Shown here piece by piece: positions 17,257-52,685 of a stretch of DNA of 64,000 nt (its first letter is position 1; every line of letters starts with the position of its first letter). Source of the DNA: Simmondsia chinensis (taxonomy: Eukaryota > Streptophyta > Magnoliopsida > Caryophyllales > Simmondsiaceae); the NCBI GenBank assembly GCA_018398585.1, contig JAGTTD010000013.1, forward strand, positions 10,202,492-10,266,491, given 5' to 3'. The notes beneath the pieces are model-generated. The model was not told the DNA's origin, did no database searches, and saw only the letters and a program-made list of their open reading frames with translations. A program made the translations under genes and the position numbers.

Positions 17257-17289
17257 ATTACTTTCCCCCCCAAGGCATCACCCTTGTCC

Positions 17290-21805: not shown

Positions 21806-21859
21806 GGGAAGGAGGTTCTGCTAACCACAGGTCGGAGGAAGCTCGGGCTCTGATACCAA

Positions 21860-26100: not shown

Positions 26101-29100
26101 GGGGTTTACAATAATTGACAACACTCAAATCCTTTTGGTAAAGGCTTGGGTGGGGATTGAGAAATGTTTAGACATGGGGAAAAACAACCGTCATTTGAGT
26201 CATTCGTCGAGAGTTTTGAATGTCCCTAGCAAATAAGAACTATAATGGAAGATATTTGGGATCTATTATAACAATTTGTAGATTATAAGGTTTCTCACGT
26301 ATTTTATGAAGGCAATAAGGCAAGCAAATAGCTTAATTCTTGTGGCATTGTAACTGAAGAACTCAAGGCACTAAGGCAAGAGATTTGGACGGAATTTGAT
26401 CAAATAATTGTTCTTGAATCACCAGGCTTCTCTACCTTTCATTAGGCTAGCTAGAGTACCCCTAATTTTTTGGGTAAAATAAATAAAGGCTTTCCTCTAA
26501 CGCCCCCAACTTAAATACCGAATAGGCTTAAGTTAAACGGGCACTACATGGCCGTACTACAATGAAATCCCCCATCATAGTACGAAGCCCGAATCATTCC
26601 ATCACAATTTCCTCAAATTCCATAAATTTTTCCAAAATTCATAACATCAAATCCAAATACATCATACCAATGACTTAGTTCTAATAGTGCAGAAGCTCCA
26701 AATTTTAATACCTCAAATAGTCCATCATATTCTATTACGAACTTATTTAAATAGCTAAACTTCAAAATCAACAAAACGTTCAGAGCAACAAGTTGCTTTG
26801 CCGTCCTCGTCCCTCTATAACTGCCATGAGCCACTAATCTGGGAAAAAGAGAAATAAACGAATTGGGTGAGCAAACAACGCGCTCAGTAAGTATAACATG
26901 TTCCCTGCCCGGATCAGGCATATTATTAACACGGATAACCTTCCAATTAAAACCAGTAAAATCAATAATCTTCGAAAATCATTTTGGCTTCATAACTCAG
27001 TTCATTTCACAAAGCTTTTCGGTAAACTTACAGACGCATCTACGACCGGTATTATTCCCGCGACAGGGTCGTAATCGATGTTCGTATTTCTTATTCGAAC
27101 CGGTTTATTCGTACCGGTTCAAGTTGACAGATCCACTAGGATCAAAACATAGTATCTGTTAGTTCAGAAGAACTAACAGACATCGGAAACTACGTGCAGG
27201 TATTATTCCTGCGACAGGGTCGTAATCGACTTTCGTATTCCATAGTCGATAGACCTCGGAAGGTCAACGTAGTTATCTGTAAGCTCTATAAAACCTTTTC
27301 AAAGTCAAAACACAGGTTTACAATAATTTCCTTCGAAATTCACATATTCGTAAAAACTCCTTCGAAATCCATATATTCATAAAAACTCTTTCGAAATTTC
27401 ACATGTTAAATCAACGTATAGACCAATATAATTTAACTCATAAGAGTCTAAATCACAAAATCACATAAACACATATGCCCAATCCTATTTTATCAAAACA
27501 ATAAATCATTCAACATATAAATCTCACAAATCAAGTCATTTAAAGCAATTTTCGTACTTTATAAACAAGTAGAGGAAGTACTATACTTACCTTTACTAGC
27601 TTTTAACCCAAAAACCCAGTTCCTATAGTTGATTAGTTTTGAAATTGACGAGATAGCGTTACCGGCATGGTGGCCGATACTGTTCCGGCGAGGTGGCGGC
27701 ACCAGCGGGTCAGTCGGAGTCGTGCCGGCGAGGTGGCGGCACTGGTGAGGCGAGGAGAGAGAATCGTAGGTGGTGGAGAGAGAACCAAGAGGAGAGAGAG
27801 AGTGGTGTGGGTTGAGGTGTGAGGTTTGAGGGGTGGAGGTGTGGGGTATTAATAGACCTAGGGGAGGTCAGGCGGTACCGAGGTGGGGGGTGGCGGTACC
27901 GTGGTGGGTCAGGCGGGGTACCGGGTGGGTCAAGCGGTACTGAGGTGGGAGGCGGTATCGAGGTGGGGGTGGCGGTACCGTGGTGGGTCAAGCTCTACCG
28001 GGTGGGTCAGGCTGTACCAGGTGGGAGGCGGTACCCTGGTGGGTCAGGCGGTACCAGGTGGGTCAGGCGGTACCGGGTGGGAGGCGGTACCGAGGTGGGG
28101 GTGGACGTACCGGGTGGGTCAGGGTCGTACCGTGAGGTGGGAGGCGGTACCGTGGTGGTGGGGTTGTACCGCTCAGGTCAGGCGGTACCGTGTGGGTCAG
28201 GGTCGTACCGCGTGGGTCAGGTGGTACTATGAGGAGACAGTTGGGAGAGAGAAAGGGGACGCGCGAGAGAGAGAGAAGGAAGGAGACGGTAGGCGATAGT
28301 GGTGAGGCGAGGCGGTAGGCGGTAGGTGATGACGCGAGGTGGTGGCGGTAGGCGGTAATGGACAAAAAAGGGGAGGCGGTAATGGAGGGTGTACGGAAGA
28401 GAGAGAAAGAGAAACGTGAGAGGGGGGGGGGGGGGGGGGGGGTGCAGCACTTTTTAACTTTTATTTTATTTTATTTTTTTTCTTTTCCTTTTTCCTTTCC
28501 TTTTCAAATTTATTTGTTTATTTATTTTTATTTCGGATTCTAATCGAAGTAATAGCGAGTTTTAACCTAATTTAAATGCCTTAAATGTCAAATATTATAC
28601 TATCGAGTCTAATTTAATTTAAATACCCTTAGTTTCACATATTGTAATACCGAATTTAATTTAATTAAGTCGGGTATTACATTTCCTGCCTCCGCTTTCT
28701 CTCTCTGAAACAAATTGTTACCTTTGTTTGGCAACAAGGTAATATGGGGTAAAGGTAATAAGGGGTAAGACCTTGGCAAATATTTTTGAGGGGTAAGGTT
28801 GGGCATTTCCCCATTTTCTTTGTCCCTCAATTTTGGGAGCTAAAGAAGGTAGGGTAAATTTTTAAAAATATGGATCATTTTGTCCTTATTTGATACGAAC
28901 TCAGATCAAACCAAACTCAATCAACAGAATCTCAAGCAAAAATTGGGCTTACAGGGCAGTAATCGGCTGCCCTGTAGAGTGACATATATATATATTTATA
29001 GATGTGTGTAAGCTTCAACAATGGAGGATTTAAATTAAAGAAAGGGGAGAAGATATAGAGAGAGAATTTAAGGGAGGAGAAGAAGAACACACTTCACATA

Positions 29101-32100
29101 CACTCTTACCCTAACTAACTCCCACTTATATATAGAAGGAGAGGAAAAATATCTAGGAAAATATCTAAAGTTGACGTGGCAAGGACGAAGGCTCAAGATG
29201 TCTGCTGGTGCGGGTAGGCAAACTGCAGACGAGGGTTGGCCGGCTGAGGTCTTGGCTAATGTGGGCTAGAAGCCATGTCTGTACCCACCAGTGGAGAGCT
29301 TGGTGGGTGTAGCCGCGCCATGTTTGTATCAATGCCGCCCCCTTAGAGGATCCTCATTCTTGAGGATCGAAAGTAAGGAAACGGAATTAGAAGTCACGGA
29401 GAAACTCCTAAGTAGCGTTAGCAATACTTTAGCCATCCCACTGAACTAAAACTTGAGTAGCAGCAACATTAGGGCATTTGACCATTAGGCGATATAGTGG
29501 CAGGTTGAGGCGAAGAAATAGCTGGCAGCCACGTATCTGGCAATGGAGTTCTGGTGGCGGGAACAGAGAAGCATCGCTTTGAAAGAGAGACATGCACCAT
29601 GTGGTGTATGGCAGAGCGGGCAAGCAGATCAAACCGGCAAGCAACAATGCCTACTTGGTCCAGAATGCGGAAAGGGCCATAATAGCAGGGCGCTAGCTTG
29701 CGAAAGTGCCTAGTTTCCACACTCCATTGGCAGTAAGGCTGCAGCTTAAGCCATGCATAGTCGCCTATCTAGAGCTCTTTTTTAGCGCGATGACAATCAG
29801 CCAGCTGCTTCATGTATTCTGAGCACGGAAGAGATGATGGCGGAGGCGGCTGATAGTCTCTTCGCAAGCTATTAAACTGTGACCAACAGCGTCAACTGAG
29901 GACTCTCCTGGCAAATAAGGGAGATGAACTGGGGGTGGTTGACCATAGACGAGCTCAAAGGCTATGGCATGGGCAGAAGTTTGAAAGGTGGTGTTGTACC
30001 ATCATTCCGCTAGTGGAAGCCAACGAGTCCATAGGCGGGGTTGCTCGCTGACCATGCAGCGTAAGTAAGTCTCCAAACAGCAGTTCAGGACTTCTATTTG
30101 TCCATCTGATTGCAGGTGATGAATAATTTAGGTGAGTGCCTAGCCGTGAAAAGAGTTCTCTCAAGAAGATGCTGGTGAAGATCGGATCACGATAGCTTAT
30201 GATGGTTTCCAGCAAGCCGTGAAGGAGGTAGATTTGATCCAATAATACATTAGCAATGCTGATAACCGTGTATGGATGGGCAAGGGATATAAAATGAGCG
30301 TACTTGGTGAGGCGATCAACCACCCCCAAAATAACTAAGTGTCCCTCTAACGGTGATAAGCCTTCAATGAAGTCAAGGGATATGTTGCTCCACACAGATG
30401 TGGGAATGGGAAGGGGTTGCAAGAGGCTAGTTGGTGCCGCTGTCTCATATTTGTTTCTCTAAGAAACTGAGCATTGGTAGATGTAAGTAGCGATATCCTG
30501 GCGAAGACCCCTCCAGTAGAATAGTGGTCGAATACGGCGGTAAGTAGCATCAATTCTAGAATGTACGCCTTGAGTGAAATCATGAAGCCACGGGAGAATG
30601 TCTTAATGTAGGTTGGCATCATTGCCAATGACAAGTCGGCCGTTGTATCGCAAATGGCCTAGGGGCCAAGAGCAGCGGGGTTGAAAGATAGGTTCCACCA
30701 ACTTATCGGAATGATGCAGGACAACATAGGATCCTTGAACCAAGAGTCTGTCATTCTTTTAAGGAAGTCAGAAGATATGGAGGATAACGCCATGCATAGG
30801 ACTTTTATTCCCAAAAAGCGAGAGAGAGCGTCAGCCGCTCTGCTTTCTAACCCCTCTTGTAAATTATATCATGGTCAAGGCCAATTAGGCGAGAGAGCCA
30901 CAAATGTTGAAGGGTAGACGTCAAGTGCTACTTAAAGAGAAATTTGAGACTTTGCTGATCGATGCGAATGATGAAATGGCAGCCGGTGATGTACTGTTCC
31001 CATTCTCCTTTGCAAAGACCACAGTAAGAAATTTGCGCTCGTAGACCGATATACCCTGATGGCGTGGTGCAAGAGTGTGACTGATAAAGGCCAAGGGTCG
31101 GCCATCTTACATGAGGGCGGCGCCAATTCTAATACCAGAGGCATCAATCTCGATAATGAATGTCTTGGTAAATTCGGCAAGGGCAAGCACTAGTGCCAAT
31201 GTTAAGGCGTCTTTCAGGCAGTTGAAAGCGTTCCCGGCATCCAGATTCCAGATGAAGTTATCCTTCCGAAGAAGGTTGGTCAGCAGCTAAGCAATGACGC
31301 CATACTGAGCAATAAATCAGTGATAGTAACCGGACAGCCCTAAGAGCTAGAGAAGTTGCTTCAAGGTCTGAGGAGGTGGTCCATTGGCGATACCCTTGAT
31401 TTGTTGAGGTTTGGCAGAGACCCCATCACCAGAAATGAAATGCCCAAAATATTCAATGCGATAAGTACAAAACGTGCACTTGGCGCGATTGGCAGTTAAA
31501 TGATTGGTGCGAAGGACACTTAGAACTGTCTCTAGATGAGAGATATGAATAGACCAAGTACCTCTATACACGAGAATGTCATCGAAGAAGACAAGGATGA
31601 ATTGCACAAGATACGGACAGAAGATATCATTCATTAAACTCTTAAAGGTAGACGGAGCGTTTGACAATCCGAAAGGCATCACAGTAAATTCATAATGACC
31701 TGAGTGTGTATGGAAAGCCGTCTAGGGGATGTCATCAACCGCCATCCGGATCTACCAATAATCGGATTTAAGGTCTATTTTTAAGAAGAAGAAGGCGCCA
31801 CCAAATTCATGAAGTAATTCTTTGACAATTAGTATGAGTAACTTATCTTTAATAGTCATTTTGTTAAGGACCCAATAGTCAAGCTAGAGGAGCCAAGTCC
31901 CATCCTTCTTCATGACTAGCACCACAGGGGAAGCGAAAAGCGAGGTGCTATTTTGTATGATGCCAACTTGTAACATTTCTTTGATCAAGGAATAACTGAT
32001 GTCCTTCTGAAAAAGAGGATCGCGGTAAGGTCGGAGGGTGACAGGGTTGCTGACGCATTTTAGCAGAATCCTGTGATCAAAGAATGGGAGATAGAGGAAG

Positions 32101-33925
32101 TTCTATAGAAGCAGTAAAAACATTACCATAGCTGTTAAGAAGCTGTTGCAAGATGGTTGGTTTTCACTTATCTGACAAATCTGTATGTACTGCGAACAGA
32201 GAGGGGGAATTGGTGGTACTTGTGATTGATAAAGCGAAAAAGGACGTGGGTGTGAATAAGAGTGATGATAACTTGTTGTCATCAATGGAGTTCAGGGTTC
32301 GACAACGAATATCGTGAAGCGTATAACGGAGCCCATGAAGAGCAACTTCCATCAAAAAGCTGAGAAAAATTCCACGTAACTTTACCTAGGGTGCGCAGCC
32401 ACTGAATTCTCAAAACCTTGTCACAACAAAATAAGGGAATAAGGAGAATGTCAGAACAGAATGGCGCATCCAGTAGTTGCCAAGAAAAGTTGCGACAGAT
32501 ACTGGCACATAACACCTGTTTGTCATTAGCAACAGTGACCATGAGGCGAATGGCAGAGTCAATCAAATAACCCAACAGCGGTGCAAGATTGGCGACAAGG
32601 AAATTGTGCGTGCTGTCGCTATCGATTATAATACTGAGAGAGTGTTTTCAACACTGTCCCATGACCACATTGTCTAGCATTGGGTGATACCCTCCAATGC
32701 ATGTATAGGGATATGGTGAGCCGAAATCGGATCTGGGTCTAGATCTATATCTGGCGTCATTAGGTTTGTTAAGGTGTCTTCATCATCCTCCTTTAGCCAG
32801 AATAACCGTGTGCAATCACACATGGGGCATTAATGACCTGGCACGAAATGGTTGTGGCAATAAAAGCAAAGATTCCGGAGGTCATCTAGCTCTGCTAACG
32901 TTCAGCTAAGTTGGCAACAATAGACGCTGGGGAGGGCGAGGAGGTGGAGTGGCGAGAAGGGCCCTCCAAGGGCTTGGCGTGGGTAGAATTGGCACTAATC
33001 TCATTGAGCTATAGCCAGTTACTCTTTCCAAGTAAGCGCAATTGAACTCCTAATATTTGGCTAATACCACTATGTCATGTAATGATTGTGGCTTTTACAT
33101 GAGAATACCTCCCGATATGTCCTCACGTAGGCCCCCAATTGATCTTCTGTTGCTCTGTTAACCCACATTTTTTCACTAACGACTCAAATTTGCTCAAGTG
33201 CTGGCCAATGCTTCCCGTTTGGCACAGCTTCATGAGCTCCGTGAGCAAGTTATCTACTTCCACAAACCTAGCTCAAATTGGTGGTGCATAAACATCCCAA
33301 AGGGACTACAACATCCCGAGGCCATGATTCCTTAAAAGAATCACGCCATTCTTGGGCATCCCCTTCCAATGCTACACTCGCCAGCATTACTTTTAACTCA
33401 TCCAGTGTTCTATCAATAATGAAGTATCTCTCACAGCGATGTAACCAGCCATCCACGCCTCTACCACTAAACCTTGGAAATTCGATCTTAGTGAATTGAG
33501 TTGGGGCCTAATAGTTACCTCTCGCATTAGCCAGAAAGACCATCCCTGCATCTCCCACTCAAGGAGAAGGTGAAGCTGTGGGTGTGGGAGCTAGTGGTTG
33601 GACACGATCATTCACTAGGTGAGCAAGACCTGCCACTTGCACTGATATTCCATTAACGACCTCCCGAAGTTCTTCCCAGAGATCACTAAATGATCTCTCT
33701 AGTGCAGTATGGTACTGATCGTTGGATTCCTCGATTTCCCTCAGGGTCACTTTCGATCTTGTTCCTTCTGCCATGGCTGCTCGCCGATCAAGCCGGCAAA
33801 TTCGGGCCAAGGAAGGAGTGCTTTGATACCAATTGATACGAAACTCAGATCAAACCAAGCTCAACTAGTGGAATCTCAAGCAATAATTGGGTCTACGAGG
33901 CAGTAATCGACTGCCCCGTTGAGTG

Positions 33926-34014
<89 letters not shown>

Positions 34015-37000
34015 CTCCAACAATGGAGGATTTACATCAAAGAAAGGGGAGAAGACATAGAGAGAGAATTTGAGGGAGAAGAAGAAAAGCACACTTCACA
34101 CACACTCTTATCCTAACTAACTAGCACTTTTATATAGAAGGAGAGGGAAAATATCTAAGGGTGACGTGGCAAGGGCAAAGGCTTTGCTCAAGTCGTCTGC
34201 TGGTGCGGGTAGGTGAACTGCAGACTGGGGTTGGTGGCTGAGGTCCTGGCGAATGCGGGCTAGACGCCATGTCTGTACCCACCAGTGGAGAGCTTGGCGG
34301 GTGTAGCTGCGCCATGTTTGTATCATTATTTAATGACAATTCCCTTTATCCTTACTTTTTTACTTAATTGCCAAACAAAATAAACTCATTTACCTCTCTT
34401 TACTCTTATTCCTCTTTACTAAACATATCAATATTGTTGAGTCGGTTCCCAAAATAATGCTGAAAAATAAAAAAATACAAAAAATAATGCCAAAAAATAA
34501 ATAATTACCAATCTACTGTTGAACCGCGTTTAGAAAACGCGGTTCACTCCAAAAATAACCGAATTAATGGAAAAATATTTTTTCCAGTAATAAAATGCGT
34601 CTTAAAGACGCGTTTCATGTGAACATAAGCCGCGTTTGCGTTTCATTTGAAGATAAACCGCATCTTTAAGACGCGGTTCATATTGGATTAAAACGCGTCT
34701 TTAAGACGCGGTTCATATATTTGTAAAGCCCAATTCTTGAAGTCAAGGACGCCCACGCTCGAAACAAATTCAAAATGAAATGGATGAAATGACTATACAT
34801 GAAGGATCACACGTGGGTTCTGTAAGAGAAAATATCATAATGTATTAACATGCAAGATGAAAAAGCAGCACGAGGCTCGGTTAGCAGCTAGTAGCAGTGA
34901 AATATATGACGGTAATATTTATTTATGTTTCTTTTTTTTGAACATTTATTTATGTTTTATTTATATTATTTTTTATATAGTAGTTCATTATTTATATATA
35001 TCTATTAGTTTGTTATTTATATTATTTTACTCGTAAACCTTCATAACCGCGTTTACTAAACGCGGTTCATATTATAGTAAACCGCGTTTTATAAACGCGG
35101 TTTATTCTGTATATAAATATTTGTTCTTGATGCGGTTATGTTTACATATAACCGCGTTTTTTGAACGCGGTTTAATATAACTGCGTTTATAAAATGCGGT
35201 TCAACAGTAGATTGGTAAATATTTATTTTTTTGCATTATTTTTTTTATTTTTTTATTTTTCAGTATTATTTTGGGAACCGACTCAATATTGTTAGTGTAT
35301 ATCTCACAAATACTTGCAAAATCCTTGCAAACGGGTAACCAGAAGATCTCAGGTGTTGAGGCTATGTAATCACTTTCCTTAAGGCTTATTTCCGTATACG
35401 AAATATCCTCGGGGATACAACAACAACCAAATATGGAGTGAAGATGTGTAAAGGGAGAGATTGACAAAGACGTAGAGAGATTGATTAAGTTTAACAAACC
35501 CAACACTCAAATTTCACACAAGAATACTTGTAGTTGTTCTTCAGATTCTTTTTCTCAATGATCTTTTTGTTCATCAAGTCTCTTTTTCAAGAATGAAATC
35601 CGGGGAATATATATGTATTACATGAGAAGAGACGTCCCTTTAAAAACAAGAAAAAAGGGCCACAACGTTCGGGGAAAAAACCGTGTGAACTGTCAGAAAA
35701 TCTGACCTGTGTGTCGACACACAACATTCTGCCGTGCGCTTCTGTAAGGATGTGTGTCAACACACGGGCCATGTGTGTCTTCACACACCCCTCATATGTT
35801 TTAAATACTTAAACATATCCCGGAACTATCTCATACACATTTTATACATACATTAAACAATGTTTTACATATTTATCAATACACATTTTGAAAATACACC
35901 AACAAATATAAGGGAAGAATAATACATTATCCTTCCATAGTTGTCAAAAAAGGCATACTCTCTTGTTATCATCCAAAACCAACAGGCACATCGCCTTCTT
36001 GTTTGTTTGCAATGGAACACTCTCTGGATAGCAGCCTCGAAGTGGCGATATAACCGGATGGATAGATTGGAACTTTGATTTCTATGGTGTCAAAATTTTG
36101 ATGCCTATGAAACTTTTAACCAATTATTCATCTAAAGGCCCTCTGAATATCTGATTTCAAAAATGGATAAGCAAATATAAGTGCAATTCCGTACATTGTG
36201 TCAATCATCTTGAAAGTTAATTTGCTGATAGTTCGATTGTTTAGGATTAAAATTTGTCGACTATGTTACTATATCTAGCTCAATTTGATTAACATAAGAG
36301 TTTTCTAGTTCCATGGCACCTTCTGTTTGTTTTTCTATTGAAATTCATAGAACTTTCCTTTAATTTCCTTAAGTATATTTTCAATTTTGTACATTGTTTT
36401 TTATCTACAAGAACAGCCACCGGCCGCTAGAAGACCTTGTTGGTGATGATAAAAACTTTCTTCTGATGTTTACTAGGTGATTATATGTTAGAAATCACAA
36501 AATGTTATTCCAATGTTGTCAACATCGATAAATTTTTACGCTATAGAAAAGGTAAAAAAGTACAGGCAATGTTTGATTTTAGCAAGCAATTTTTATTTCC
36601 CTCTTAATGCTCAAGTTTGATGATTTTAAGTTATCTGCCTGAAAGATTTGGGTTCATTGGACGGGTGAGCTATCCAAATATGATGAATCTCTTTGAAGAG
36701 ATTGATGTTGATATGGAGGCATCCGATATGTCATTCTCAGTAAGCCTAAAAAGCAACGAAGGGTGTGAGTGGGGAATCAAAAATGGGTTGAGCAGTTTGT
36801 TTGCTCAGAAAAGCAATGTAGTGAATCCATACTTCGGGAAAATGCTTAAAGAAAAAAAGCAGTTCAAAGATGATGTGATCAAGTAAGGCATACCCTCTTT
36901 GTCTGCTAGTTTCCAGTGATTACATCACTACAAGCTTTCAAACTTTTCACTAATTTCCATCTGAACATGCATCCGTTTGCCATGCATGCTTGCTAAGTTT

Positions 37001-40000
37001 ATTTATGATGTCAACTAAAGCAACATTCCCAGTGTCCCATGGGCTCCCGCCTAAGCAGGGTCAAAGGGGTGGATGTACACAGCCTTCCCCCTTCATGGTG
37101 TTACCCTGAAGAGAGACTGTTTCCGAGTACCCCCAACCTGAGGGGTGAGGACTTCCCAGGAGGTCACCCATCCTAGTAGTACTCTCGCCCAAGCATCCTT
37201 AACTTCGGAGTTCTAATAGGATACGGTGCTTGCATGTTGGTACCCTCTTTGGTTATGATGTCAACCGTATATGCCTATGTGAAAAATTTTCCATGACCAT
37301 AGAGCTTGTGTTTAGTACTGATGATAACTGGATTGAAGGTACCTCAAAGAGTTTGAAAAAAATCCAGAGATACGATGCACTGAAACACTTGGTCATTTTA
37401 TCAAGTCAAGGGGTTATTCTGAGTTATTCCAAAAGGCTTATCTTGTGAGATTTCTGGACCTTCTGTCACTAATTTACTATCCAGAAGCAAGAAATAAAAC
37501 TGTGGTTTTATAGGTTCCCATGTGTGCATCAATCTGGTCTTGCCCATCGGAAATAGTGATAAATTTTTCTGCTTTTTCCGTCCTTTCTTTCTGTCGCAAT
37601 CATCATCTGCTTCAGGTACGCAAAGTTCTTGTAGTTGCATGTGAAATGGAAACTTCTTTTCATTGCTTAATAATTTGGCATGTGATTGCCAGTTGTTTGG
37701 TCGTCCACAATGGCTTACTGTGAAGGGTCGCTCTCATTGTTTCGTGAATAAGGTTAAAATCTCTAGTTCCCGTTCACCTTATGTGAAAACCTTTTTACTC
37801 TTCTAATAGTACTTCTGAAGTTTTTGTTTCTAGATTTCTGATTGTGAATTGTGTTGGGGGATGAAAAACAGATTAAAGAGGAACTGCAGCAAAGAGGTTG
37901 TCAAATAAAAACGAATTGCGAGGTGCATTTTGTTTCAGCTGCTGATCAAGGTGGGTGGCTATATTCATACTATTCCTGAGATTAATGATAATTCACCATG
38001 CTTCATGACAAGATTAAGATTGTAGGGTAAATGACAACCATCAATATGAGCTGTAATTCATTAGTTGCTTGTTCACATTTTGTTATTGTGTAGATTCAAA
38101 TTTTTTAAAATTCGTATCCTTTTCTTGACCAAATGCATATTTCAGGATGCTGCATTGGTTATCAATTTAAATGGAAATCTACATAATTTAGTTGATGACA
38201 GAAATGAGAAAACACATAATTAACATAACCTTTTTCTGAAGCAAGTATGCTATTGTGAACTAACTGCTTCCTTTTAACTATGATACCACACAATAAGTAG
38301 AAAGTGGATACTTGCTATTAGGGCATTGTGTTGGTAACACGGATCAACTGAACTATTACAACTTGGAAGCCAATGAGATAAAATGAAAAGTGTATATGAG
38401 TTGCATTTTGGACTGGCCAAGGTCCAAGATGCGGGTTAAGGAGTTGTATATATACCAATATAAAGAAGAGATATACCTTCTGCTTTAAAGATCTTCATGC
38501 ATAGCTTCATTGAAAGTGTATTTAACTTAGTAAAATCCTAATTAGAGTGTTGATGTGTTACAAGTCCCAATGTCTTCTTTAATGTTTCTTGTACGATCAT
38601 ATAGGTAGGGAGCTTCTAGGTGAGAACAAATAGGTAGCCTAGCCGCATGACATACTTTCAAGTATATTGTATTGTCTTGCTACGAGTGCTTTTTGGTTAA
38701 TCAAATTGATAAGTGCCCCAACACTTAGATGGATTATTTCAATTTGAATCTAGATATATAAACGAGGGCTTTTCACATAGCAACCACTATTTTCTCCTTT
38801 AACTTTTGGCAAAATAGCAGTCATAAGAAACATTAATCCTTTCTATGTAGCTGATAGATAAACATTCCCCTATCAAGCATTTGATTTTGGATCCCTTTCA
38901 CCTTACAATCCATTATTTTCTTATTAACATGATGAAATTTTAACGTGATTTGATGCCACTAGGCCAGCAACGTTGGGTGCCATTCAAATGTTACATTGAT
39001 TTCCTTTTCCAATGCAATACCATCTCTTGACAAAGCTTCCTTGTAATCTATTATTTGAATCTTTCCTCTTTGTTGTCTTTCTTTTTGATAATTAGCAACA
39101 TAGTCACATTACAAAACAAGCACCTCGTACTAACAAGACCTGACTCAACCCGTATGAAAGCGGGGATAAAAAAAGAGACAAAAGTAATACAACAATCCAA
39201 AACAAATCCAGTTACATGCAAAAGCAACATGCATAGAAGACTTCAGCCATCACTGGAAATGATTCAAAGTAGACTAGGAGCAAGGGAATGAGCCACTGTA
39301 CCAAAGCTGGAGATGAAGATAATAGGGAATCAAGTAGACTAAAACTTTAATCGATCATTGCAATATGTTCAACCACAACCAATTCATTGTCATCAAATCT
39401 CAATCTAAGCTTTTTCCTAAGCTCCCACAAACGCTCCGCAGCATGGAGCTTATCAACATTTTTAGCACTTTCCCTCTTCTTTTGTTTACTAGATGGCTTG
39501 ACTGACATCTTCTAGCTACACTGTGACCTCTTTTTTATCTAAATGACCTTTCCTTCCAAATTTTCAACCCCTTTTTTTCAAAGGCTATGAATGTGGACCA
39601 AGTTTTCGGTTCATGCTGCTTGAAATTTCAGCGCTTTGCAGAAAATTGGGCATGATTTGTCAATGAGTATTGTTGCTGAAGTTTCTTATAATTTTGATCG
39701 CATTTTGAAATACATTGCAGGTTGCATAGTTCATAATGGTGGTAGTTCACATGATTCTTTTGATGGATGCATCATAGCAACTCATGCCCCAGAAGCTTTA
39801 AAATTATTAGGGAGCCAGGCCACATATGACGAAAAAAGAATACTTGGTGCTTTCCAATATGTCTACAGGTACTTCTTTCACTCATATCTATTGCCATATT
39901 TTCAAGTTTATCTATCCCATGTGATCTACAGGAATGTATTCAATCTAGTCTACATGTCCCTGAAGTTTCAGTTCATTTGATGGGTTCCTTTTGGATCGTG

Positions 40001-43000: not shown

Positions 43001-46000
43001 CAGCACAAGCCATGGAAGGGAAAAATCGACACAAAACAACGTATAAAAAATTAACCAGGAAACTCTTTTGTAAGTAGAAGGAAAAAAAACAACTACGTTC
43101 CTCATACATTGTGAAAATTTGTATTAAAATTTCTGATTACAACCATATACTAACTTTTTTTGCTTGATCTAACTCGTCGATTCACCAATAAATGTGCAAC
43201 TTCTGCACATATAATGCTGAAAACTTTCCCAAAAAAATATAGCATCCGAACAAGGCGTACTTTCCATGCTCGGAGCACATAGTGGCATGCACACTCCCAT
43301 ACATGCAAATCGCTCTCGTCTTTTCTCACCCGCTGTCCCTGGGCAAGACTCAAAGCCAATGTAAGCAACCCTATTATGTATAGGGCTGAATTTCCTACTC
43401 TGTACTATCCTCTTCCAGCTGGTGTGCACACAAATGACTGTGATGAGCATCTAATTTTCACTTTGAACAACACAACCAGTCTTAGGTGTGTCAATTTGAA
43501 ATGTTCACCACATTGTCCTTGGAAAACTGTTTCGGATGAAGGAAATTAGAAAGAATTGGAGAACTGTTACATTTGACATAGAAGACTCTATAGAAGAAAC
43601 ACCCCCTGTTTGAAGCTCAATTGCTAAACATAACATGTGCTTGGATGCATTTGTTTCAAACCTCTAACTTTTCTACTAACATTCTCAATTGACACACCTT
43701 TAGATGCTATCTTCTTTTTATCTTCTTCTTTCTTTTTGGGCGAGGATGAACACATAGTGAAATGTTGATTACTGTATTGCATGAGTCGTAGTTGATTGTT
43801 GAAAATATATATTATCCATATGTCTAACATTAGTTTTCTACTCATAATGCACATATCCGACAATCAACTAGTATTCATGTAATACAATAATCATCATAAT
43901 ATCCATCACATCGTGGCAACAATTCACTGTCTATTCATTCTTGCACCAAAATGTAATCTCTTTAATTTTATCCTTTCTTTTGAACCATCGATAGATCTTT
44001 TGTGATAGGGTGTAAGATAAATTATCTACAATATAGAGTTCCTATCTTTGCAAGTTTCAGTGCCATTGAGACGTCATTACATCTTAGGGAAGATTTGAAG
44101 TTTCAAATCCATGTAGATTAGGTCTCAATTATTTAAATTACTTATAGATTTCTATTTTTATTTGTTTTCCCTTTTAACTTGTTTTGTATGCAAGTCCTAG
44201 TTGTTGACAAAAAGGAATTATCACAGGCTTATAATGCAATTTCAAAACAGTTTTTTTTTGACAGAAATTTCAAAACAGTTAGAAACCAAGTATTGGAAGA
44301 AAAATCTGGATGCGTCGATGTTCACTTGGCTTGGTGTTTCATGAGTCCAAATTGTGCACCACTATTGTTTTATGTCTTACTCTTAAATCACTCCATTTGA
44401 TCTTGTACATTCATGATGTAGCATTTAGCTCCACTTTAATATTCTTGCACTCTCTTTTTGGAACACTGTCACCCACAGATACCAATAATAAGGCTTGTTT
44501 TTGTCTCTTCTAGTCATTTAGCTGCTCGAATATTTGTTTCCATCTCGTAATAATGGCACTATGTTTCATGATTGGGGTTGGATCGATGTAGTTTGCTAGA
44601 GGAGGGTGGCACAATTCTTACGTTTAAAGGGACCAGGAAAAATTGTACTCTGAAAAGTGCAGTAAGAGTTCATAGTCCCCAGTTTTATTGGAAGGTAATT
44701 GTTAATTTTATATTTGATATTCAATATTTTTCTTTGTTTGATTCTTTCCTCTACAATGTGGGAAATCTCAATCGAGATAATAACAAAAGCCCAAGAGTTG
44801 TATTTTTGCAAGAATAATATTCATGAGCAGTAACCACATGCTTTGTGTGATAGGTCGCTACCCAAGCTGGTTTAGGTCTTGCAGATGCATACATCAGTGG
44901 AGACATCTCTCTTGTAGATAAAAATGAAGGTCTTATAAACCTTTTCATGGTAAAATACTAGATATATGGATAGCCTAAAGTTAATAAAATATTTCTATAT
45001 GGGTTGTTTATGGTTATATTCTTCTAATTTCCTATGTAGATATTTATTGCCAATAAAAATATGAAATCTTCTACTTCAGTTCCTAAGAAGAGGTATGGTC
45101 TTTTTTGGAAGTCTTTCTAAAGTTAGAAATGATTTGACCTCCATCTTCTTGATGTATATAGTTTATATGGTAATCTTCATTGGCTTTAGGGGTTGGTGGA
45201 CGCCGATGTTCCTTACAGCTGGGACAGCTTCTGCAATGTACTCCTACAAGAATGCTACTAGGAAAAATATACTCACACAAGCTCGAAGGAATGTTTCTCG
45301 CCACTATGACTTGGTATGAGAAGCCAACATTCCAAATCTTTGATCAATTCCATCCTAAGAAAATATGTGCATGTTAGAGGATAAACGATGTTGCTTCTCT
45401 TAGATACTCAATAACATTACTTCAGTAATCACTGGGTGGTTGCTAGTTTGGAATTGAACATTTTTTGCTCTTTTTCTACAGAGCAATGAAATGTTTTCCC
45501 TTTTTCTTAATGAGACGATGGCATACTCTTGCGCTGTATTCAAGGTCATAACTGATGGATCATCAATTTTCTGGAACTAGATATTATTCTTTCAAGCTAC
45601 ATATTATATCGCTTTTCCTGCTCCTTACAACTTGCTCTTTCTTGTGTTGATATGTAATAGTCTGAAAATGAAGACCTAAAAATTGCGCAACTTAGAAAAT
45701 TTTCCCTTCTCATCCAGAAGGTAAATATTTTCCATAGTGTTTGCTTTAATTGCCTGCAAACTCCTATACTTAAATAACAGTTCATGTTTCTCTTTGGCAT
45801 TAGTGTAGGCCAAAGTTGAGAAAAACCATGAGCTGCTTCAGATTGGTTGTGGTTGGGGAGGTCTTGCAGTTGAAGTTGTCAAGCAAACTGGATGTAAATA
45901 TACAGGAATTACACTTTCTAAAGAGCAGCTCAAATTTGCTGAACAAAAGGTGAAGGAGGCTGGCCTTCAGGTGTGCAGATTTATTTTTCATTTTCATATT

Positions 46001-47802
46001 CATAGTTATTATTGTTAAAATTTTAGGTTCCTTTGCTAAAAACTTCACTGCATGATGTCTATATCGCTTTATTGGACCTGTAATTTTGATTCATCGTTCA
46101 TACTATGGAATCTTCATGTTTTTTCATTTTGATCAAATATAAATGTATGATCCATGATTGTTTTTAGTTGACATTCATGGCTCAAAAACTCATAGATTGA
46201 CAGAAGATCTCATGTGCATTCAATGTGGGAACTTGTATATTGTTGGTTTATGCTTTCATTTAGTCTTGGGTAGATTCTAGGCGGCATGACAATTTAAATT
46301 TCAGTGACATTATACATAAGAGAGAGAGAGAAGACCAAATGGATGTACAAGATGGTAAAATTTTTAATACCAGAAGATATGAGAATTAGTTAAGTTCGGT
46401 GATAGTCAGTCTATTTGAATTATGAAATGACAACAACAATATGTTCCTGCTATAATTAAACAAAATCTATGTAACTTCAACTCAATATAAAAATTCTTGC
46501 AGGATCGAATTAAGTTCCTTCTTTGTGATTACCGCCAACTACCAGATTCACACAAATATGATAGAATAATTTCCTGGTGAGACCATCCTCCAACTCGAAT
46601 TCATCTTAATGCATTGTGAATACTACAATTCAAAGCAACAACCTGTCTTTCTTTATCCTCATTTTGTTTTCTCAGCGAGATGATAGAAGCTGTTGGGCAT
46701 GAGTACATGGAGGAGCTTTTCCAACGTTGCGAGTCGGTTTTGGCCGATCATGGACTTCTTGTTCTTCAGGTAAATCATATCAGTTTAAAGAGATTTACAA
46801 AGCCTCAAGTTAAAAAAGATCCGAGGAAAAAATGCTTTGAGTGTTAATTGCCATGTTGGCTTTGGGGCGTAAAGATTGAAGTACCTCCAATCAATATGTT
46901 AATAACTAAGTGGAGGTGCTCTTAGACACTTCAAATGAGATCTAAATATAGCAGATCATAAAGAATCGTTGAGTCTCACTTCTTGACATGCTCATATCTA
47001 ACTCTCATGCTCATCTGTAGAATAAATTGCAATAATAATTGTAGAATAATTGTAGAACCATGGTCGATTAGAGCCATCCTATCTAAGCTTTTCTGGAACA
47101 TAAACATGATCTAAAGACTTGCGTTTGCAAAAAATTTCATGAACAGTTGTGCTAATTTTATTGCATGTTTAATCGTTTTCAACATGTCCACACATTCATA
47201 TGGTTGTTCCAATTAATATATATAATAGGCATGATAAGGGCGTCAAGGAAGTATTAGCTAACGGATATTATATAATGTAATGCCGTATAACTAACAACTC
47301 TTATTTAATTCAATGCCTGAGTCTGGGCAATATAGGATAGTATCATATCCTCACTCTTCACAACCCACTACCTACACTGCTTTCATATAAAATAAGAAAG
47401 AATGGTTTAATAATTTGAGTTATAATCTAAGGTGGAATCATTCTCAACCCCTTTATACCATGTTTCTGGGAAATGCTATCTTTGTTTCTTGTCCAGTTCA
47501 TATCATGTCCAGATGAAAGATATGTTGAGTTTCGCCGAAGCTCAGATAATTTTTTGAAGGAATATATTTTTCCTGGTGGATGCTTACCATGCTTGAGCAG
47601 AGTAACGTTGGCAATGGCTGCCGCCTCTAGACTCTGGTAAACACTAGAAATATAATTAAATGATTTGAATTACAAAGCCCCTCTTTTACACAAAACATAT
47701 GCTGAAATGCTGCTTTTACAGTGTGGAGCACCTGGAGAACATAGGAATCCATTACTATCAAACGTTAAGGTATTGGAGGAAAAATTTCATGGAGCACAAG
47801 AG
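23127..47802 (+). CDS. cyclopropane-fatty-acid synthase-like protein (oxidoreductase-methyltransferase fusion), 3' incomplete
   Basis: Plant CFA-synthase type. The N-terminal FAD amine-oxidase-like half has a Rossmann motif VIGAGIIGLVAAYELAKAG. The C-terminal half transfers a SAM methylene to acyl double bonds in membrane phospholipids. Exons: 23127-23312, 36665-36882, 37339-37444, 37514-37615, 37693-37752, 37872-37950, 39721-39868, 40985-41108, 41882-42062, 42293-42321, 42424-42572, 44592-44694, 44854-44949, 45040-45092, 45190-45313, 45482-45544, 45661-45720, 45809-45970, 46503-46576, 46676-46769, 47497-47636, 47722-47802. All phases agree, giving about 810 codons without a stop; relatives have about 865. 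SAM motif I is IGCGWGG (exon 18). By recalled family motifs the catalytic residues are Cys in AYSCAVF (exon 16), Glu in EMIEAVG (exon 20) and Tyr in HYYQTL (exon 22). Oddities: exon 2 lacks an AG acceptor (reads CGG) and the last exon is missing. Confidence 0.9.
24195..24388. mobile_element. small MITE with ~36-bp inverted ends
   Basis: The left end ACGTTAACATCCATCGG...TTTTGCTTACGTGG is mirrored at the right end by CTACGTAAGCAAAAACTAATGGATGTTAACG, with a few mismatches. The interior is AT-rich with no frame. The target duplication is unclear. Confidence 0.65.
24399..24606. mobile_element. hAT-type MITE with 8-bp target duplication
   Basis: A 208-bp element starting CATGGCCGGTCCTGAC. The reverse complement of its right end reads CAAGGCCAGACATAAC. 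The flanking direct repeat ATTAACAT is perfect (24391-24398 and 24607-24614); 8 bp is the hAT size. It carries the GGCC-rich ends and the 'GGGGTCCTTAAAATTCGAGGG' type of subterminal text (as two adjacent blocks near 24542-24561) common in plant hAT relics. No transposase. Confidence 0.8.
25780..26360 (+). pseudogene. LINE-type RNase H (RVT_3) remnant
   Basis: Read on the plus strand, ALWKSRNAFGF (about 25810-25845) matches the linker upstream of plant LINE RNase H. WIKVNFDG follows (about 26008-26030) with the first catalytic Asp, then FITLDAQGRVLDQG, LLVKAWVGIEKCLDMG (the usual catalytic Glu is Lys), and KVSHVFYEGNKASK near 26290-26325. Stops follow NFDG and lie near 26270. No LINE 3' tail was identified beside it. 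Confidence 0.7.
27041..27240. repeat. ~50-bp direct duplication inside the solo LTR
   Basis: Two copies (27041-27090 and 27191-27240, about 150 bp apart) share TATTATTCC, then GCGACAGGGTCGTAATCGA, then TTCGTATT, with a few differences. Confidence 0.7.
27850..28235. repeat. GGTACC minisatellite inside the solo LTR
   Basis: About fifteen or more units of a 17-23-bp theme built from GGCGGTACCG and GGTGGGTCA, interspersed with GAGGTGGGGGT. Each unit carries a KpnI-type GGTACC, and the strand is extremely G-rich. Repetition opens long frames in several phases that are not genes. A G run lies just downstream at about 28420-28442. Confidence 0.9.
28891..29331 (-). repeat. 3' LTR of second chromovirus
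   Basis: 441 bp, TGATACGAAC to TTTGTATCA. It has only a short TA tract (about 28984-28996) where its partner has a long one. Confidence 0.92.
29429..32900 (-). pseudogene. chromovirus pol remnant
   Basis: In element order: RNA-binding and protease traces (32282-32900, with WLRTLGKV), then RT around 31347-31900 with MPFGLSNAPSTFKSLMN and the catalytic FFDDILVYR. RNase H traces follow at about 30930-31190, integrase at 29955-30640 with the DFIEGL and VDRLTKYAHF blocks, and a chromodomain start (ATQVLVQWDG) ending at a stop near 29429. Stops and frameshifts are frequent. Confidence 0.85.
33241..33774 (-). pseudogene. chromovirus gag remnant
   Basis: The probable start is the ATG at 33772-33774 (MAEGTRSKVTLREIEES). 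A stop near 33559 follows. The next block DGWLHRCERYFIIDRT (about 33410-33456) is the gag-domain signature of plant chromoviruses. Downstream zinc-knuckle text near 32800-32880 is degraded. Confidence 0.8.
33834..34325 (-). repeat. 5' LTR of second chromovirus
   Basis: 492 bp, matching 28891-29331. The extra length comes mainly from an expanded (TA)n tract at about 33926-34012. Confidence 0.92.
33926..34012. repeat. (TA)n microsatellite in LTR
   Basis: About 40 TA dinucleotides with one CA interruption near 33940. The partner LTR has only a handful, so the tract grew after insertion. Confidence 0.95.
34439..35284. mobile_element. MULE-type MITE packed with CGCGTTT palindromes
   Basis: An 846-bp element. 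The left end GAGTCGGTTCCCAAAATAAT is mirrored by the right end, which finishes ATTATTTTGGGAACCGACTC. The inverted ends extend about 80-100 bp. The flanking 9-bp repeat AATATTGTT is perfect (34430-34438 and 35285-35293), the Mutator size. Inside are at least eight copies or half-copies of AACCGCGTTT-nnn-AAACGCGGTT or the GTCTT variant, for example 34521-34545, about 34655-34682, 34690-34715, 35045-35070, 35080-35102 and 35150-35172. The centre (34740-34920) is non-palindromic and may be captured DNA. No transposase. Confidence 0.85.
35290..35904 (-). mobile_element. 615-bp solo LTR (copia-like)
   Basis: It begins TGTTAGTGTAT and ends ATACACCAACA. The target duplication is AATAT (35285-35289 and 35905-35909). 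No internal region remains. Orientation is inferred from the TGTTGGTGTA start typical of copia LTRs when read on the minus strand. It contains three palindromes of the form TGTGTGTC-GACACACA (35710-35726, 35753-35768, 35772-35788). Confidence 0.8.
37016..37252 (-). mobile_element. SINE with 5S-rRNA-derived head and Au-like tail
   Basis: A 237-bp insertion in intron 2 flanked by a perfect 13-bp duplication TTATGATGTCAAC (37003-37015 and 37253-37265). On the minus strand the first ~110 bases match plant 5S rRNA from about nucleotide 10: AGAACTCCGAAGTTAAG, then GCTTGGGCGAGAGTA, then GGATGGGTGACCTCCTGGGA, so the internal A-box and C-box of a type 1 Pol III promoter are nearly intact. The remainder matches Au-SINE text: GGAAACAGTCTC, AAGGCTGTGTACATCCACCC, GACCCTGCTTAGGCGGGAGC and CACTGGG. 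Such elements are mobilised by LINE reverse transcriptase. Confidence 0.85.
37142..37252 (-). pseudogene. 5S rRNA-derived sequence (SINE head)
   Basis: By eye, the ~70 bases from AGAACTCC to GAAGTCCTC differ from the plant 5S consensus I recall at only about three positions; the first 40 bases are more diverged. The true 5S 5' end and the final ~15 nucleotides are missing or altered, so this is not a working 5S gene. It is the head of the SINE. Confidence 0.85.
39082..39540 (-). mobile_element. second LINE fragment: ORF1 end joined to 3' UTR
   Basis: The short T run at 39082-39086 followed by GATAATTAGCAACATAG is the same 3'-end wording as the LINE at 10524 (T run, GATAATTATTGGCAAAG). On the minus strand a frame reads MSVKPSSKQKKRESAKN, then ERLWELRKKLRLRFDDNE, and stops near 39350, followed by ~265 bp of UTR. 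This is the lysine-rich tail and last block of ORF1, again without ORF2. 5'-truncated; the right edge is uncertain and no target duplication was found. Confidence 0.65.
40403..40773. mobile_element. MULE-like MITE in intron 7
   Basis: The left end GGGTTATTTACAATAAAGG and the reverse complement of the right end (GGTTATCTGTGTAGTAAG) match loosely. The next ~80 bp also mirror each other (AATTTAGTCTGTGTATAATT against TAGTTTAGTTCTTGTACTTC). The A/T-rich interior has no frame and the target duplication is not clear. Confidence 0.5.
42573..44591 (+). other. intron 11 of the synthase gene, no gene inside
   Basis: The donor CT|GTTAGT and acceptor GTAG| both follow the GT-AG rule. A minus-strand frame at 43169-43450 (93 codons, cysteine-rich) is the most gene-like text inside, but I recognise no family in it. 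No transposon ends were identified. Confidence 0.55.
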
Positions 47803-47901: not shown

Positions 47902-48347
47902 TGTTAAAGATTGAGAGCAGAAGTGGTATACTGAAAATGAACTTGAAAAATTTTTTAGACAATATTTTATACTCAAAAATATACAAACACTAATTTTTTA
48001 GGGACACCTTACATATATACCTATACACCCACACACTCTCTCACTCACTATTTATCTTACTGATATGTTTTTCCACTCTTTACACCACACACACCAAGAG
48101 ACAATCTAAGCTTGTATTTATAGTGCTTCAAAGTCGGTGGATCTCCACCAACATTTTATTTTTTAATTATTTTGTTTTCTTTCCTTTTTTCTTTTCCTCA
48201 ATTATTGAGCATTTCTAGAATGCCCTGAGAAAAAAATTTGAGATATTTGATTACTTTAATAATTTCTTTTACTTTACAAAACATTTCTAGAAAGATGTAG
48301 AGAAATGTAGAGAAATGTGGAGAGAGAGAGGGGTCAGTGATCTTTCA
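47902..48347 (-). repeat. 3' LTR of third copia element
   Basis: 446 bp, similar over its whole length to 52686-53142 apart from small insertions and deletions. It contains GTAGAGAAATGTAGAGAAAT sub-repeats near its right end. Confidence 0.92.
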
Positions 48348-48485
48348 TTGCTCCCGCTCAACGACTACTCTCTCTCATTGCTGACCTTGGAATCATGCCA
48401 AGATGCCTTTGAAACTCTTCAAACTTGATGCTAGTTAGTCCCTTTATGAACATGTTTGCTACTTAGTCTTCAGTTCGAATATACT

Positions 48486-50530
48486 TCATCTTGATGTCTC
48501 CCTGCAACACCTTTTCACGAGTGAAAAGTGTACTTCGACATGTTTGGTTCGTGCATGGAATACTGGACTTTCTGCTAAGCAAATGGCTGACTGATTATCA
48601 CAGTGTAACTTCACAACATAGTCAACTGGTTGATGTAGGTCTTTTATTAGTTGGATTAACCATGTACACTCTTGAGCTGTCATTGCTGCTGCCCTGTATT
48701 CTACTTCTGTGCTTGACAATGACACTGTAGGTTGCCTTTTGCTGCACCAAGATATTACTACAGAACCCAAGCTGAACACATACCTAGTAATTGATCGACA
48801 TGTGTCGTGATCACTAGCATCACAGTATCCTTTAAGTTCACACGGTACCTCTTTCTGATAAAATATTCCAAAGTCAAGTGTACCTTTTACATATATCAAA
48901 ATTTGTCGTATTGCTTCCAAATGTCGTTTCTTTGGCTTTTGCATGAACTGGCTAACCACTTCAACAGCATGAGTGATGTCGGGTCGTGTTAGAGTGAGAT
49001 AGATTAAGCTTCCTACCAATTGTCTATACATGGTCATATCTTCAAGGTCCTTCCCTTCAGCTGAGCACAATCTTACATTGACCTCCATTGGGGTTGAGAT
49101 TGGCTTGCAGTCAAGCATCCCAAATTTCTCTAGAAGATCATGAGCATACTTCTATTGACATAGGAATATCCCATCCTTGGTGTGCTCGACCTCGAGACCG
49201 TACAGAGTGATTCATTCGAGTCTGGTAAATTTCTTCATCATCATCTCCAGTGATGAGCAAGTCATCCACATATACGAGTATTACTGATAGCTTGCTATCT
49301 TGTGCCTTCGCAAACAGGCTTGAATCTGCTGGTGCTCCTGAGTATCCACTTTGTACTAAGAATTCAGCAATTTTCCCGTACCATGCTCTGGGTGCTTGTT
49401 TTAACCCATACAATGCCTTCTTCAGCTTGCAAACATAATTTTGATGAGCCTTTGACTCAAACCCTTGTGGCTATTCCATGTAAATTTCGTGGTCCAGTTC
49501 TCCATGTAAGAATGCGTTCTTAACATCCATTTGCCATAACTTCCAAGATCTACCTGCTGCAAGTGCTAGAAGGACACGTACTGTAGTAATCTTTTCCATC
49601 GGATTGAAAGTCTCCTCATACTCTAAGCCATATTTTTGTAAGAATCCCCGTGCAACTAGACGAGCCTTGTATCTCTCAATTGAGCCATCTGGCCGAGTTT
49701 AAGTTTGTAAACCCATTTGCTGGAGATAGGTTTTACACCTTCTGGGTTCAGCACTAACTCCCATGTCTCACTTTGCCTGAGTGCCATGATTTCTTCTTCC
49801 ATGGCCTTCCTCCATTGTTGGCAGTGAACTGCCTCTTGAAATGTGCTTGGCTCTTGTACACCAACATCTTCAACTAAGGCTGTATTGGCATATTTTGGAT
49901 TTGGCTTTCATTGTCTTTTCGACCTCCTCAAATTGAGGCTGAGAAGCAGCTTCTTCAAGAGAATCTTCAATCTGACTTAGTCTCTCCTCCTCAGGTGACA
50001 ATTGTCGAACTCCTGTTTGCCATGGACTCCTTCTATCTGTCCCTGGTTCTTCCAAGTGAACTTGTAGTTTTTCTGCCATCTCCCTTGAATCGGGCAATGT
50101 GGTTGCTTGTGGAGACCACCATGATGAGGCTTCATCAAATATCACATTTCATGAGATATTAGCAGCGACTGGTTTTTGGATCACAACACTTCCACCCTTT
50201 TCGTTGGGTGTCGTATCCAACAAATATGCATCGTATTGCCTTTTTGTCTAATTTGTTGCGGAGATGATTAGGCACAAATACATAAACGAGGCCAAATACG
50301 CGAAAGTGACTTACCACAGGCGTCTTCTTCCACAATTTCTCATAAGGTGAGATAAACCCCAGTGTTGCTTGAGGTAGCCTATTGATGACATGAGCTGCAG
50401 TCTTCATACACTTGACCCAGAAGCAAGTTGGTACATTCTTTGCATGTAACATGCTTCTGCACGTCTCTGCCAAGTGACGATTCTTTCTTTCGGTAATACC
50501 ATTTTGCTGTGGAGTGTTTGGGCATGTTAA
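48486..50530 (-). pseudogene. copia pol 3' part: integrase end, RT, RNase H
   Basis: The RNase H block at 48486-49118 is uninterrupted for 210 codons, with [30 protein letters not shown] and [22 protein letters not shown] at 49138-49413 carries [14 protein letters not shown] and the intact catalytic [12 protein letters not shown]. The integrase C-terminus (50159-50473) has AIRCIFVGYDTQRKGW. Frame changes between the blocks (near 49130, 49450-49870 and 50150) break the polyprotein. Confidence 0.9.
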
Positions 50531-51460
50531 TTACCTTCTAATCTTACTGATCTGAAGATATCGGGGAAACTCCATGGACGTATGCTCTCCCCCATTGTCA
50601 GTGCGTAGGCATTGAACCTTGCAGCCAACCTCTTTCTCTGCCATCTCCTTAAATTCTTTAAACTTGGATAATGCCTTAGACTTTTCTTTCATGAAATATA
50701 CCCATACATATCTGCAAAAATTATCAATGAAGGTGATCATGTACCTGAATCCACTTATTGATGGCTGTTTCACTGGTCCAAACACATCCGAGTGCACTAG
50801 CTCCAATGGTGCCTTGGCTCTGAATTTGGACTCTGAGAATAGCAATTGGCGTGCTTTGCCGTATTGACATCTTGCACATACTGTGTCATCCCGAATGTCT
50901 AAATTCGGAAGCCCCTTCACCGTACATTTCTTCATCATTACTTTTAGCTTGTGGTAGTTTACGTGCCCAAGCCTTGCATGCCAAAGATCGGCCGTCTCAT
51001 TTTTCCTTGTCTTGTCCACGTACGCTGCTTGTGCGGACATTAAATAAACAGACTCTAGCTTCCGTCCTTCCATGATTGGTGTGCTTGAAGGTCTGAGACT
51101 ACGATAAACCTTCATGTCTTTGGGTTCGAACACCACATAGTTATCGGTAGAGGTGAGTTGCGACACTGACAATAAATTCTTTGTCATGCCTAGCTCATGA
51201 AACACATGATCAAGCTTCACCTGGTGTGGGATAAAGCGAGGAGCGATTACTGCTTTCCCAATGTGAGTAATAGGCAGCCGAGAATTATTTGTAGTTACCA
51301 CAACACGTTCCCCCTTGTACTCAGACATGCCTTCGAGCTTCCCCTTATCCCCAGTCATATGGTTAGAGCAGCTAGAGTCCACGATCCAATCATCTCGGTA
51401 GTTGATGTATTTATCATTTACTGTTGCAAGTGCAGTCTTCTCGGTTGACTTGTCAACACA
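50531..51460 (-). pseudogene. copia protease and integrase core
   Basis: A 283-codon open stretch. The protease active site reads [11 protein letters not shown], so the usual DSG is DSS. The zinc region follows (LGHVNYHKL and [12 protein letters not shown]). The integrase core has [13 protein letters not shown] and [11 protein letters not shown], keeping the aspartates, then the frame is lost at about 50560. Confidence 0.88.
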
Positions 51461-51599
51461 AGTTAGTGCATACTCTTCCTCCAGGAGGGATCTTGACTCT
51501 TGCTGATTACTTGAATTATGCTCATCTATAGCAACAGATGCCTAAAAGTCCCATTCTTCTTCACTATCATTTTGGTGAGTCGCAGCAGCATTTCCTTCA

Positions 51600-52453: not shown

Positions 52454-52685
52454 GTGAACTTGGTAATGCCCAGCACTTCACCAAGTATGCCTGGTTCCCG
52501 ACCGATAAGCATCACAGTCCCTCACTGTACTGCAACGGAGTCTCCTTATAGCTTGGTCCCTGACCATAATTGAAGTGGCAGATTTTTCCTTGGAGCTTAG
52601 CCTGTGACGTAGATTAAGTGGGAGTTGACCTTAGAATGAAGCCGACTTATAGTTCGGTTCCTGACCGACTGGCTTTAACACCACT

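Follow-up and report, generated by a model that had tools for sequence, protein, structure and literature searches.

This locus raises the question of how one short insert comes to read as 5S rRNA in one half and as the body of an Au-type SINE in the other, and whether such a chimera stands alone or belongs to a family. The insert lies in a 64,000-nucleotide stretch of Simmondsia chinensis DNA (the window) and runs on the minus strand from 37252 to 37016, a length of 237 nt, enclosed by an exact 13-bp duplication that reads GTTGACATCATAA on that strand (Table 1). An earlier note on this DNA had described a 237-bp insertion with a perfect 13-bp duplication and a junction between its 5S and Au parts near 37140; the two flanking copies match exactly, and we locate the junction at 37140/37141. 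The two halves have the same orientation, 5' to 3' along the minus strand, the 5S half being the right-hand part in plus coordinates.

Table 1. Coordinates of the insert, its parts and its flanking duplication in the window
Feature	Position	Strand	Basis
5' target site duplication copy (GTTGACATCATAA)	37253..37265	-	exact 13-bp repeat
5S-rRNA-derived head: 5S positions ~2-107, 7-nt deletion, 5S 3' end ACCCCT	37141..37252	-	RF00001; comparison with plant 5S; subfamilies versus host 5S
A box of type 1 (5S) internal Pol III promoter; 13/15 here, complete in family consensus	37190..37204	-	comparison with plant 5S
Intermediate element (IE), intact	37182..37187	-	comparison with plant 5S
C box, 18/18 versus general plant 5S	37157..37174	-	comparison with plant 5S
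Place of 7-nt deletion (GTGTTGC) marking short versus long subfamily	37146..37147	-	subfamily comparison
5S/LINE-tail junction CACCCCT/CAGGTTGGGGG, CT common to both parents	37140..37141	-	alignment with host 5S and LINE
Predicted hairpin CAGYCTCT..TTCA/TGAA..AAGGCTG in tail	37079..37120	-	folding
Au-like body and tail, homologous to LINE 3' end; ends TTTA here, TTTT in consensus	37016..37140	-	consensus versus LINE copies
3' target site duplication copy	37003..37015	-	exact 13-bp repeat

The 5S head and its promoter boxes

Comparison with the Rfam model for 5S rRNA (RF00001) gave a minus-strand match at 37253-37135 of 62.3 bits (E 1.1e-10), and 86 of 96 bases of the head are identical, in an ungapped alignment over 5S positions 12-107, to a general plant 5S sequence (alignment score 152; the best of 300 shuffles reached 38), values that uphold the earlier attribution of the first half to 5S rRNA. 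Base 1 of the element corresponds to 5S position 2. The first 10 nt have been replaced, matching 5S at two of ten positions, and are not explained by simple copying of a 5S RNA. The A box, intermediate element and C box were positioned by the general layout of 5S. An exact match extends over 22 nt at the C box and is found a single time in the window, against an expectation of 0. Of the two boxes that had been called intact, the C box is so at all 18 positions, and the A box is present with 2 of its 15 positions changed. With this set of boxes, Pol III transcription from a type 1 promoter would be possible.

Two contrasts within the head were computed and given no weight in our conclusions. 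The promoter boxes compared with the rest of the window head yielded P values of 0.14 over 5S positions 12-107 and 0.01 over 2-107, and in the window copy, to which this second contrast is confined, changes number 9 of 47 in the 5' part and 1 of 49 in the 3' part (P 0.007). The altered first 10 nt are predicted to pair with the junction region and so to re-form 5S helix I; this pairing was equalled by 8 of 2000 shuffles of the window copy, and by 26 and 91 of 5000 shuffles of the short and long subfamily consensus sequences described below, and it is a hint only, because those bases can pair with the tail as well, a pairing equalled by 40 of 2000 shuffles. The whole element showed no extra fold stability relative to shuffles (z of -0.43 and 0.07). 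TTTT is absent from the interior of the window copy, a weak observation since 1622 of 5000 shuffles contain it.

Copies, target duplications and subfamilies

BLAST found no further copy of the element in the 64-kb window. The copies reported here come from the whole assembly to which the window belongs (831,394,711 bases in 35 contigs), in which the best 40 of 6582 first-look candidates were scored. One of these was the window copy; the other 39 places are 86-91% identical to it, and 35 of them begin at element base 1. For comparison we assembled 80 copies, comprising the window copy, the 39 further places and two sets of 20 drawn from the 40-place lists of a tail-only and a head-only search, all absent from the element list. 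Seven of the 80 fall short of the 5' end, leaving 73 full-length copies, the window's included. Target duplications were scored against controls in which the 3' flank was swapped in from another copy. A score of at least 12 was reached by 42 of the 73 full-length copies and by none of 730 controls, and a score of at least 11, corresponding to duplications of 12-23 bp, by 47 of 73 and 2 of 730, respectively; among the first 39 copies, 23 scored at least 10, compared with 1 of 390 controls. Counting against this, 31 of the 73 have no duplication scoring at least 12, and 23 of these score below 9.

The two halves also keep company with each other. In all 20 head-selected loci the head is followed by the tail, which is only partial in five (L070, L073, L080, L087 and L088), and among the 20 loci selected by tail, 18 have a 5S head, complete or in part; the remaining two (L056 and L057) have no adjoining head and count against. 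The earlier note had proposed that the chimera itself retrotransposed and that dispersed copies sharing the junction, each with its own duplication, would establish a family. Both expectations are borne out: one duplication encloses the two parts of the window copy, and to it are added 39 further copies and individual duplications around 42 of 73. The two outcomes named there as fatal, a solitary copy or a 5S part inserted separately, are contradicted by the 39 places at 86-91% identity and by the 20 head-selected loci.

The abundance of the family was gauged in a 200-kb sample of 20 stretches of 10 kb, taken at round coordinates on 7 contigs and not selected by content. BLAST detected six copies that join head to tail (one each in L102, L107, L108 and L109, two in L113), ten pieces of tail alone, 27-126 nt long, and a single piece of head alone (L115). 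Scaled to the genome, six copies per 200 kb correspond to about 25,000 head-bearing copies (Poisson range roughly 9,000-54,000), to be read as an order of magnitude since the sample stretches are not random.

The full-length copies fall into two subfamilies. The short one, with 50 of the 73 copies including the window's, has a consensus of 237 nt; the long one (23 of 73) has a consensus of 244 nt and retains the complete 5S 3' end, with GTGTTGC before ACCCCT. Mean identity to the respective consensus is 0.918 and 0.929. The host 5S genes offered a reference for the head: 46 of 47 scored RF00001 matches lie on one contig (C8), mostly at a regular spacing of ~420-440 bp, and one 5S sequence predominates in six overlapping loci there (36 counts, overlaps included). 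The long consensus is identical to this host 5S at 101 of 109 bases over positions 12-120. Over positions 12-119, it is 100/108 identical to either reference, the host 5S or the general plant 5S; these two references differ at six positions, at which the long consensus has the host letter three times (39, 81 and 116) and the general letter three times. By its sequence the head is thus a plant 5S. A host-specific origin was considered and is not claimed, the long consensus being equally near the general plant 5S; the mechanism set out below does not rest on such an origin, and its confidence is unaffected.

Three minor observations concern these loci. In the host 5S arrays (L090-L095) the spacer holds a second, C-box-like GGGTGACCTCGTGGGAAG stretch about midway between genes, and GGGTGACC therefore recurs at ~210 bp. 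Upstream of the headless tail of L057, at a distance of about 200 nt, a piece resembling the 5S head lies in reverse orientation, reading CTCTCGCCCAAGCACACTTAACTTC. Four copies (L076, L079, L083 and L085) have C runs of widely varying length in the tail, at the place of the short C run of the consensus.

The tail and its LINE counterpart

The second half of the window element resembles a reference Au body, with a score of 58 against a maximum of 30 in 1000 shuffles. A hairpin is predicted in that Au body at the same place as in the tail, its bases being partly different, and the window element contains the motif AAGGCTGYGTACA, which may fall within the 37-bp Angio-domain near the 3' end. The same tail, however, closes LINE copies of the same genome. 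Several of the tail-only pieces in the 200-kb sample end in TTG repeats, and two TTG-ended tails (L100 and L111) have 866-892 bp upstream in common at 83% identity, including a reading frame whose C-terminal motif we take to be that of plant RTE LINEs. A protein search with this C-terminus returned 14,748 candidates, of which the best 150 were scored; the LINE is abundant. We examined four copies: L100 and L111, found by their tails, and L117 and L118, found by the C-terminus (two of the 150 scored places), L116 being the same place as L111. L118 has an open frame of 601 amino acids with the reverse transcriptase domain RVT_1 (E 3.9e-32), for which the best PDB sequence matches are the R2 and LINE-1 reverse transcriptases. 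The SINE tail follows 668 nt beyond this frame and is itself followed by TTG repeats.

All four copies carry the tail. The family consensus is identical to them at 111/133 (L118), 105/123 (L117), 107/126 (L100) and 106/123 (L111) bases, which defines a common LINE/SINE tail of ~120 nt, 83-86% identical, closing four LINE copies with (TTG)n. The homology begins at CTCAGG or TCAGG (CCTCTCAGG in L100), that is, at the 5S end CACCCCT/CAGG, with CT in common. Compared with the reference Au body, LINE tails scored 58.5 and 48.5, and their shuffled versions reached at most 36.5 and 28. The putative donor is a LINE with a LINE reverse transcriptase (RVT_1) and a (TTG)n 3' end. From its TTG end (compare PMC3747384) and the C-terminal motif, it probably belongs to the RTE clade. 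No Pfam family exceeded the cut-off for the C-terminus, where the single match was an AT-hook below it. In a loose motif test on the 3' ends of the 80 SINE copies, 73 ended in a T run or a CTTT-like sequence, none in TTG repeats and 7 otherwise. One diverged 5S-headed copy of the 200-kb sample (L109, ~9148-9362) does end in TTG repeats; it may represent an older subfamily nearer the LINE, and the (TTG)n end would be ancestral to the T run.

The earlier reading of the second half as an Au SINE body therefore keeps its likeness to Au (58 versus 30) and gives way as to source, the nearest being the LINE 3' tail of the same genome. The same note had proposed a promoter swap from type 2 to type 1 Pol III control, in which 5S RNA would have taken the place of the tRNA head on an Au-type SINE already present. 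We regard this as unlikely, at perhaps one chance in four. The Au likeness speaks for it, as does a published parallel in Helicoverpa, where this route is proposed to lead from HaSE1 to HaSE3 (PMC3272025). The entire non-5S part is nevertheless matched by the LINE tail, from the junction onwards, so that no tRNA-headed Au intermediate is needed. A 183-nt Au query returned no candidates in the genome, a weak test in which an empty answer is no proof of absence.

Origin of the family and comparison with known elements

The family has the structural properties of a SINE. It is short (237-244 nt), non-coding, dispersed and present in many copies; its head derives from an RNA that Pol III transcribes, and the consensus contains the A, IE and C boxes; target site duplications surround individual copies, 42 of 73 scoring at least 12; and its 3' end is common to LINE copies, one of them with RVT_1. 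We think it highly probable that this plant SINE family, a 5S rRNA head on a LINE 3' tail, arose by template switching and then spread. That the LINE homology starts where the 5S ends fits a switch in which the enzyme passes from the LINE RNA onto the 3' terminus of a 5S rRNA, since such an event yields the intact 3' end of the second RNA joined to a LINE tail that is truncated on its 5' side. In this scheme the LINE reverse transcriptase would begin at the 3' end of LINE RNA at the target site, break off about where the conserved tail starts, and continue on a 5S rRNA from its 3' to its 5' end. Such an insert, having all the internal promoter elements of 5S (A, IE and C), could then be transcribed by Pol III, and its tail, if recognised by the LINE enzyme, would allow it to spread in trans. 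The long form would have preceded the short one: a later variant would have lost 7 nt at the 5S end and founded the short subfamily to which the window copy belongs, and the (TTG)n end would have given way to a short T run in most copies examined. A similar switch, from a tRNA-derived SINE RNA to 5S rRNA, has been proposed for the insect SINE HaSE3 (PMC3272025). Compared with the earlier note, the origin is more specific, being 5S rRNA plus a LINE tail as judged by alignment.

The other explanations fare much worse. A fragment of a Cassandra-type LTR element is very improbable. Cassandra elements are known in plants as terminal-repeat retrotransposons in miniature (TRIM) that have a 5S promoter (PMC10853983), the 5S sequence being carried in their LTRs. 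A 13-bp duplication, rather than a pair of LTRs, directly flanks the window copy, other full-length copies being flanked likewise where a duplication was found, and the tail is common to a LINE. LTR elements usually make target duplications of 5 bp, shorter than the 12-23 bp of those scoring at least 11 here. Almost no credence is left for a one-off chimeric retrogene, a single switch between 5S RNA and LINE or SINE RNA without spread, which the architecture of the window copy taken alone would fit and which is refuted by dozens of copies at dispersed places that share the junction but differ in their target duplications; nor for 5S pseudogenes inserted repeatedly beside Au or LINE tails, for although 5S retro-pseudogenes exist, the shared junction in all 20 head-selected loci and the single duplication around both parts of the window copy refute two separate insertions, and the longest direct repeats flanking its 5S part or its tail alone are 6 and 7 bp.

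Among known elements, 5S-headed SINEs have been described in fish, mammals and insects (PMC3272025, PMC8010984 and PMC3747384) and 5S-related SINEs in Aspergillus (PMC5063351). Of these, SINE3, AmnSINE1, OS-SINE1, Ped-1, HaSE3 and PxSE4/PxSE5 share with the Simmondsia family the retroposed 5S head, insect families also share the A, IE and C boxes, and HaSE3 has body and tail in common with another SINE (PMC3272025). These known 5S-headed SINEs are animal or fungal, whereas the Simmondsia family has a plant host and a plant LINE tail with Au-like sequence. Vertebrate SINE3/AmnSINE elements have a Deu-domain body and a CR1-type tail; the body found here is Au/LINE-tail-like.

On the plant side, Au SINEs carry a tRNA-derived head. 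Au and Angio-SINEs share with the Simmondsia family a similar body, a predicted hairpin at the same place and a short 3' T run; our element has the Au-type body, by comparison with one reference Au sequence, and has a 5S head in place of the tRNA-derived one. Au is 181 bp long (PMC5787218), versus 237-244 nt here, and Table 2 of PMC3747384 lists it with a (T)2-5 end and without a LINE partner. Plant SINEs derive from tRNAs according to a 2022 review, which mentions the Angio-domain (PMC9033089). According to a 2013 review (PMC3747384), flowering-plant RTE LINEs end in TTG-type repeats, and the tobacco TS SINE, which has an RTE tail, has a ~100-nt 3' end in common with a (TTG)n-ending LINE; the Simmondsia family is likewise LINE-tailed, but TS has a tRNA head and a TTG-repeat end where our family has a 5S head and mostly a T-run end. 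Cassandra again is a plant retroelement with a 5S-derived promoter, carried inside LTRs, while the Simmondsia element has direct target duplications and a LINE-shared tail; the Cassandra paper (PMC10853983) mentions promoter acquisition by SINEs for animals. The literature searched, which did not extend to the main plant SINE papers, Repbase or SINEBase, yielded no plant 5S-headed SINE. As far as we found, the combination of 5S head and LINE tail is known from animals and fungi and seems new in plants; we claim no priority. Searches for junction and 5S patterns in bacterial and archaeal contigs, for junction, Au and 5S patterns in viral contigs, and for the element in plasmids and phages gave no relevant match and are uninformative on plants; two viral-contig matches to the Au motif were set aside as chance, with no SINE sequence around the motif.

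A wider reading, to which we give slightly less than an even chance, is that plants made a 5S-headed SINE independently, by direct fusion of 5S to an RTE-like LINE tail, and that the Au-like (Angio-type) 3' body is itself such a tail, its (TTG)n end turned into a T run. If true, the Simmondsia family would name the enzyme that moves Au-type SINEs, offering a concrete LINE candidate for Au-like tails, which are listed without a known partner in PMC3747384. With a multicopy 5S-headed family, plants too would be shown to have used a type 1 Pol III promoter for SINEs, and programs that look for SINEs by their A and B boxes would probably overlook families of this kind. Because the 5S genes and the LINE are both present in the same assembly, the birth of the chimera should be readable at base level.

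The surroundings of the window copy offer further detail. ARAGORN detected no tRNA in the 64-kb window. Exon-like open reading frames lie on the plus strand on either side of the insert (36608-36886 and from 37337 onward), the former without a Pfam match, and cyclopropane-synthetase (CMAS) matches lie farther down, at 45809-46018 and, below the cut-off, at 46620-46847; we read the copy as a possible antisense intron insertion in a CMAS-type gene, which is an interpretation of ours and not a result. Elsewhere in the window, four direct-repeat sets (16942-22160, 47961-53128, 5033-10080 and 28898-34325), 4.5-5.0 kb apart, LTR-like and 80-97% identical, surround or adjoin retroelement-like reading frames. 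At 34430-34544 and 35179-35293 there is a MITE-like inverted repeat with 115-nt arms, 90% complementary and 634 nt apart. Three tandem units occupy 54395-59053 at a spacing of 2.13 kb (96-97% identical over the 300 nt compared), and a GC-rich minisatellite with a unit of ~19-20 bp is found at 27866-28227.
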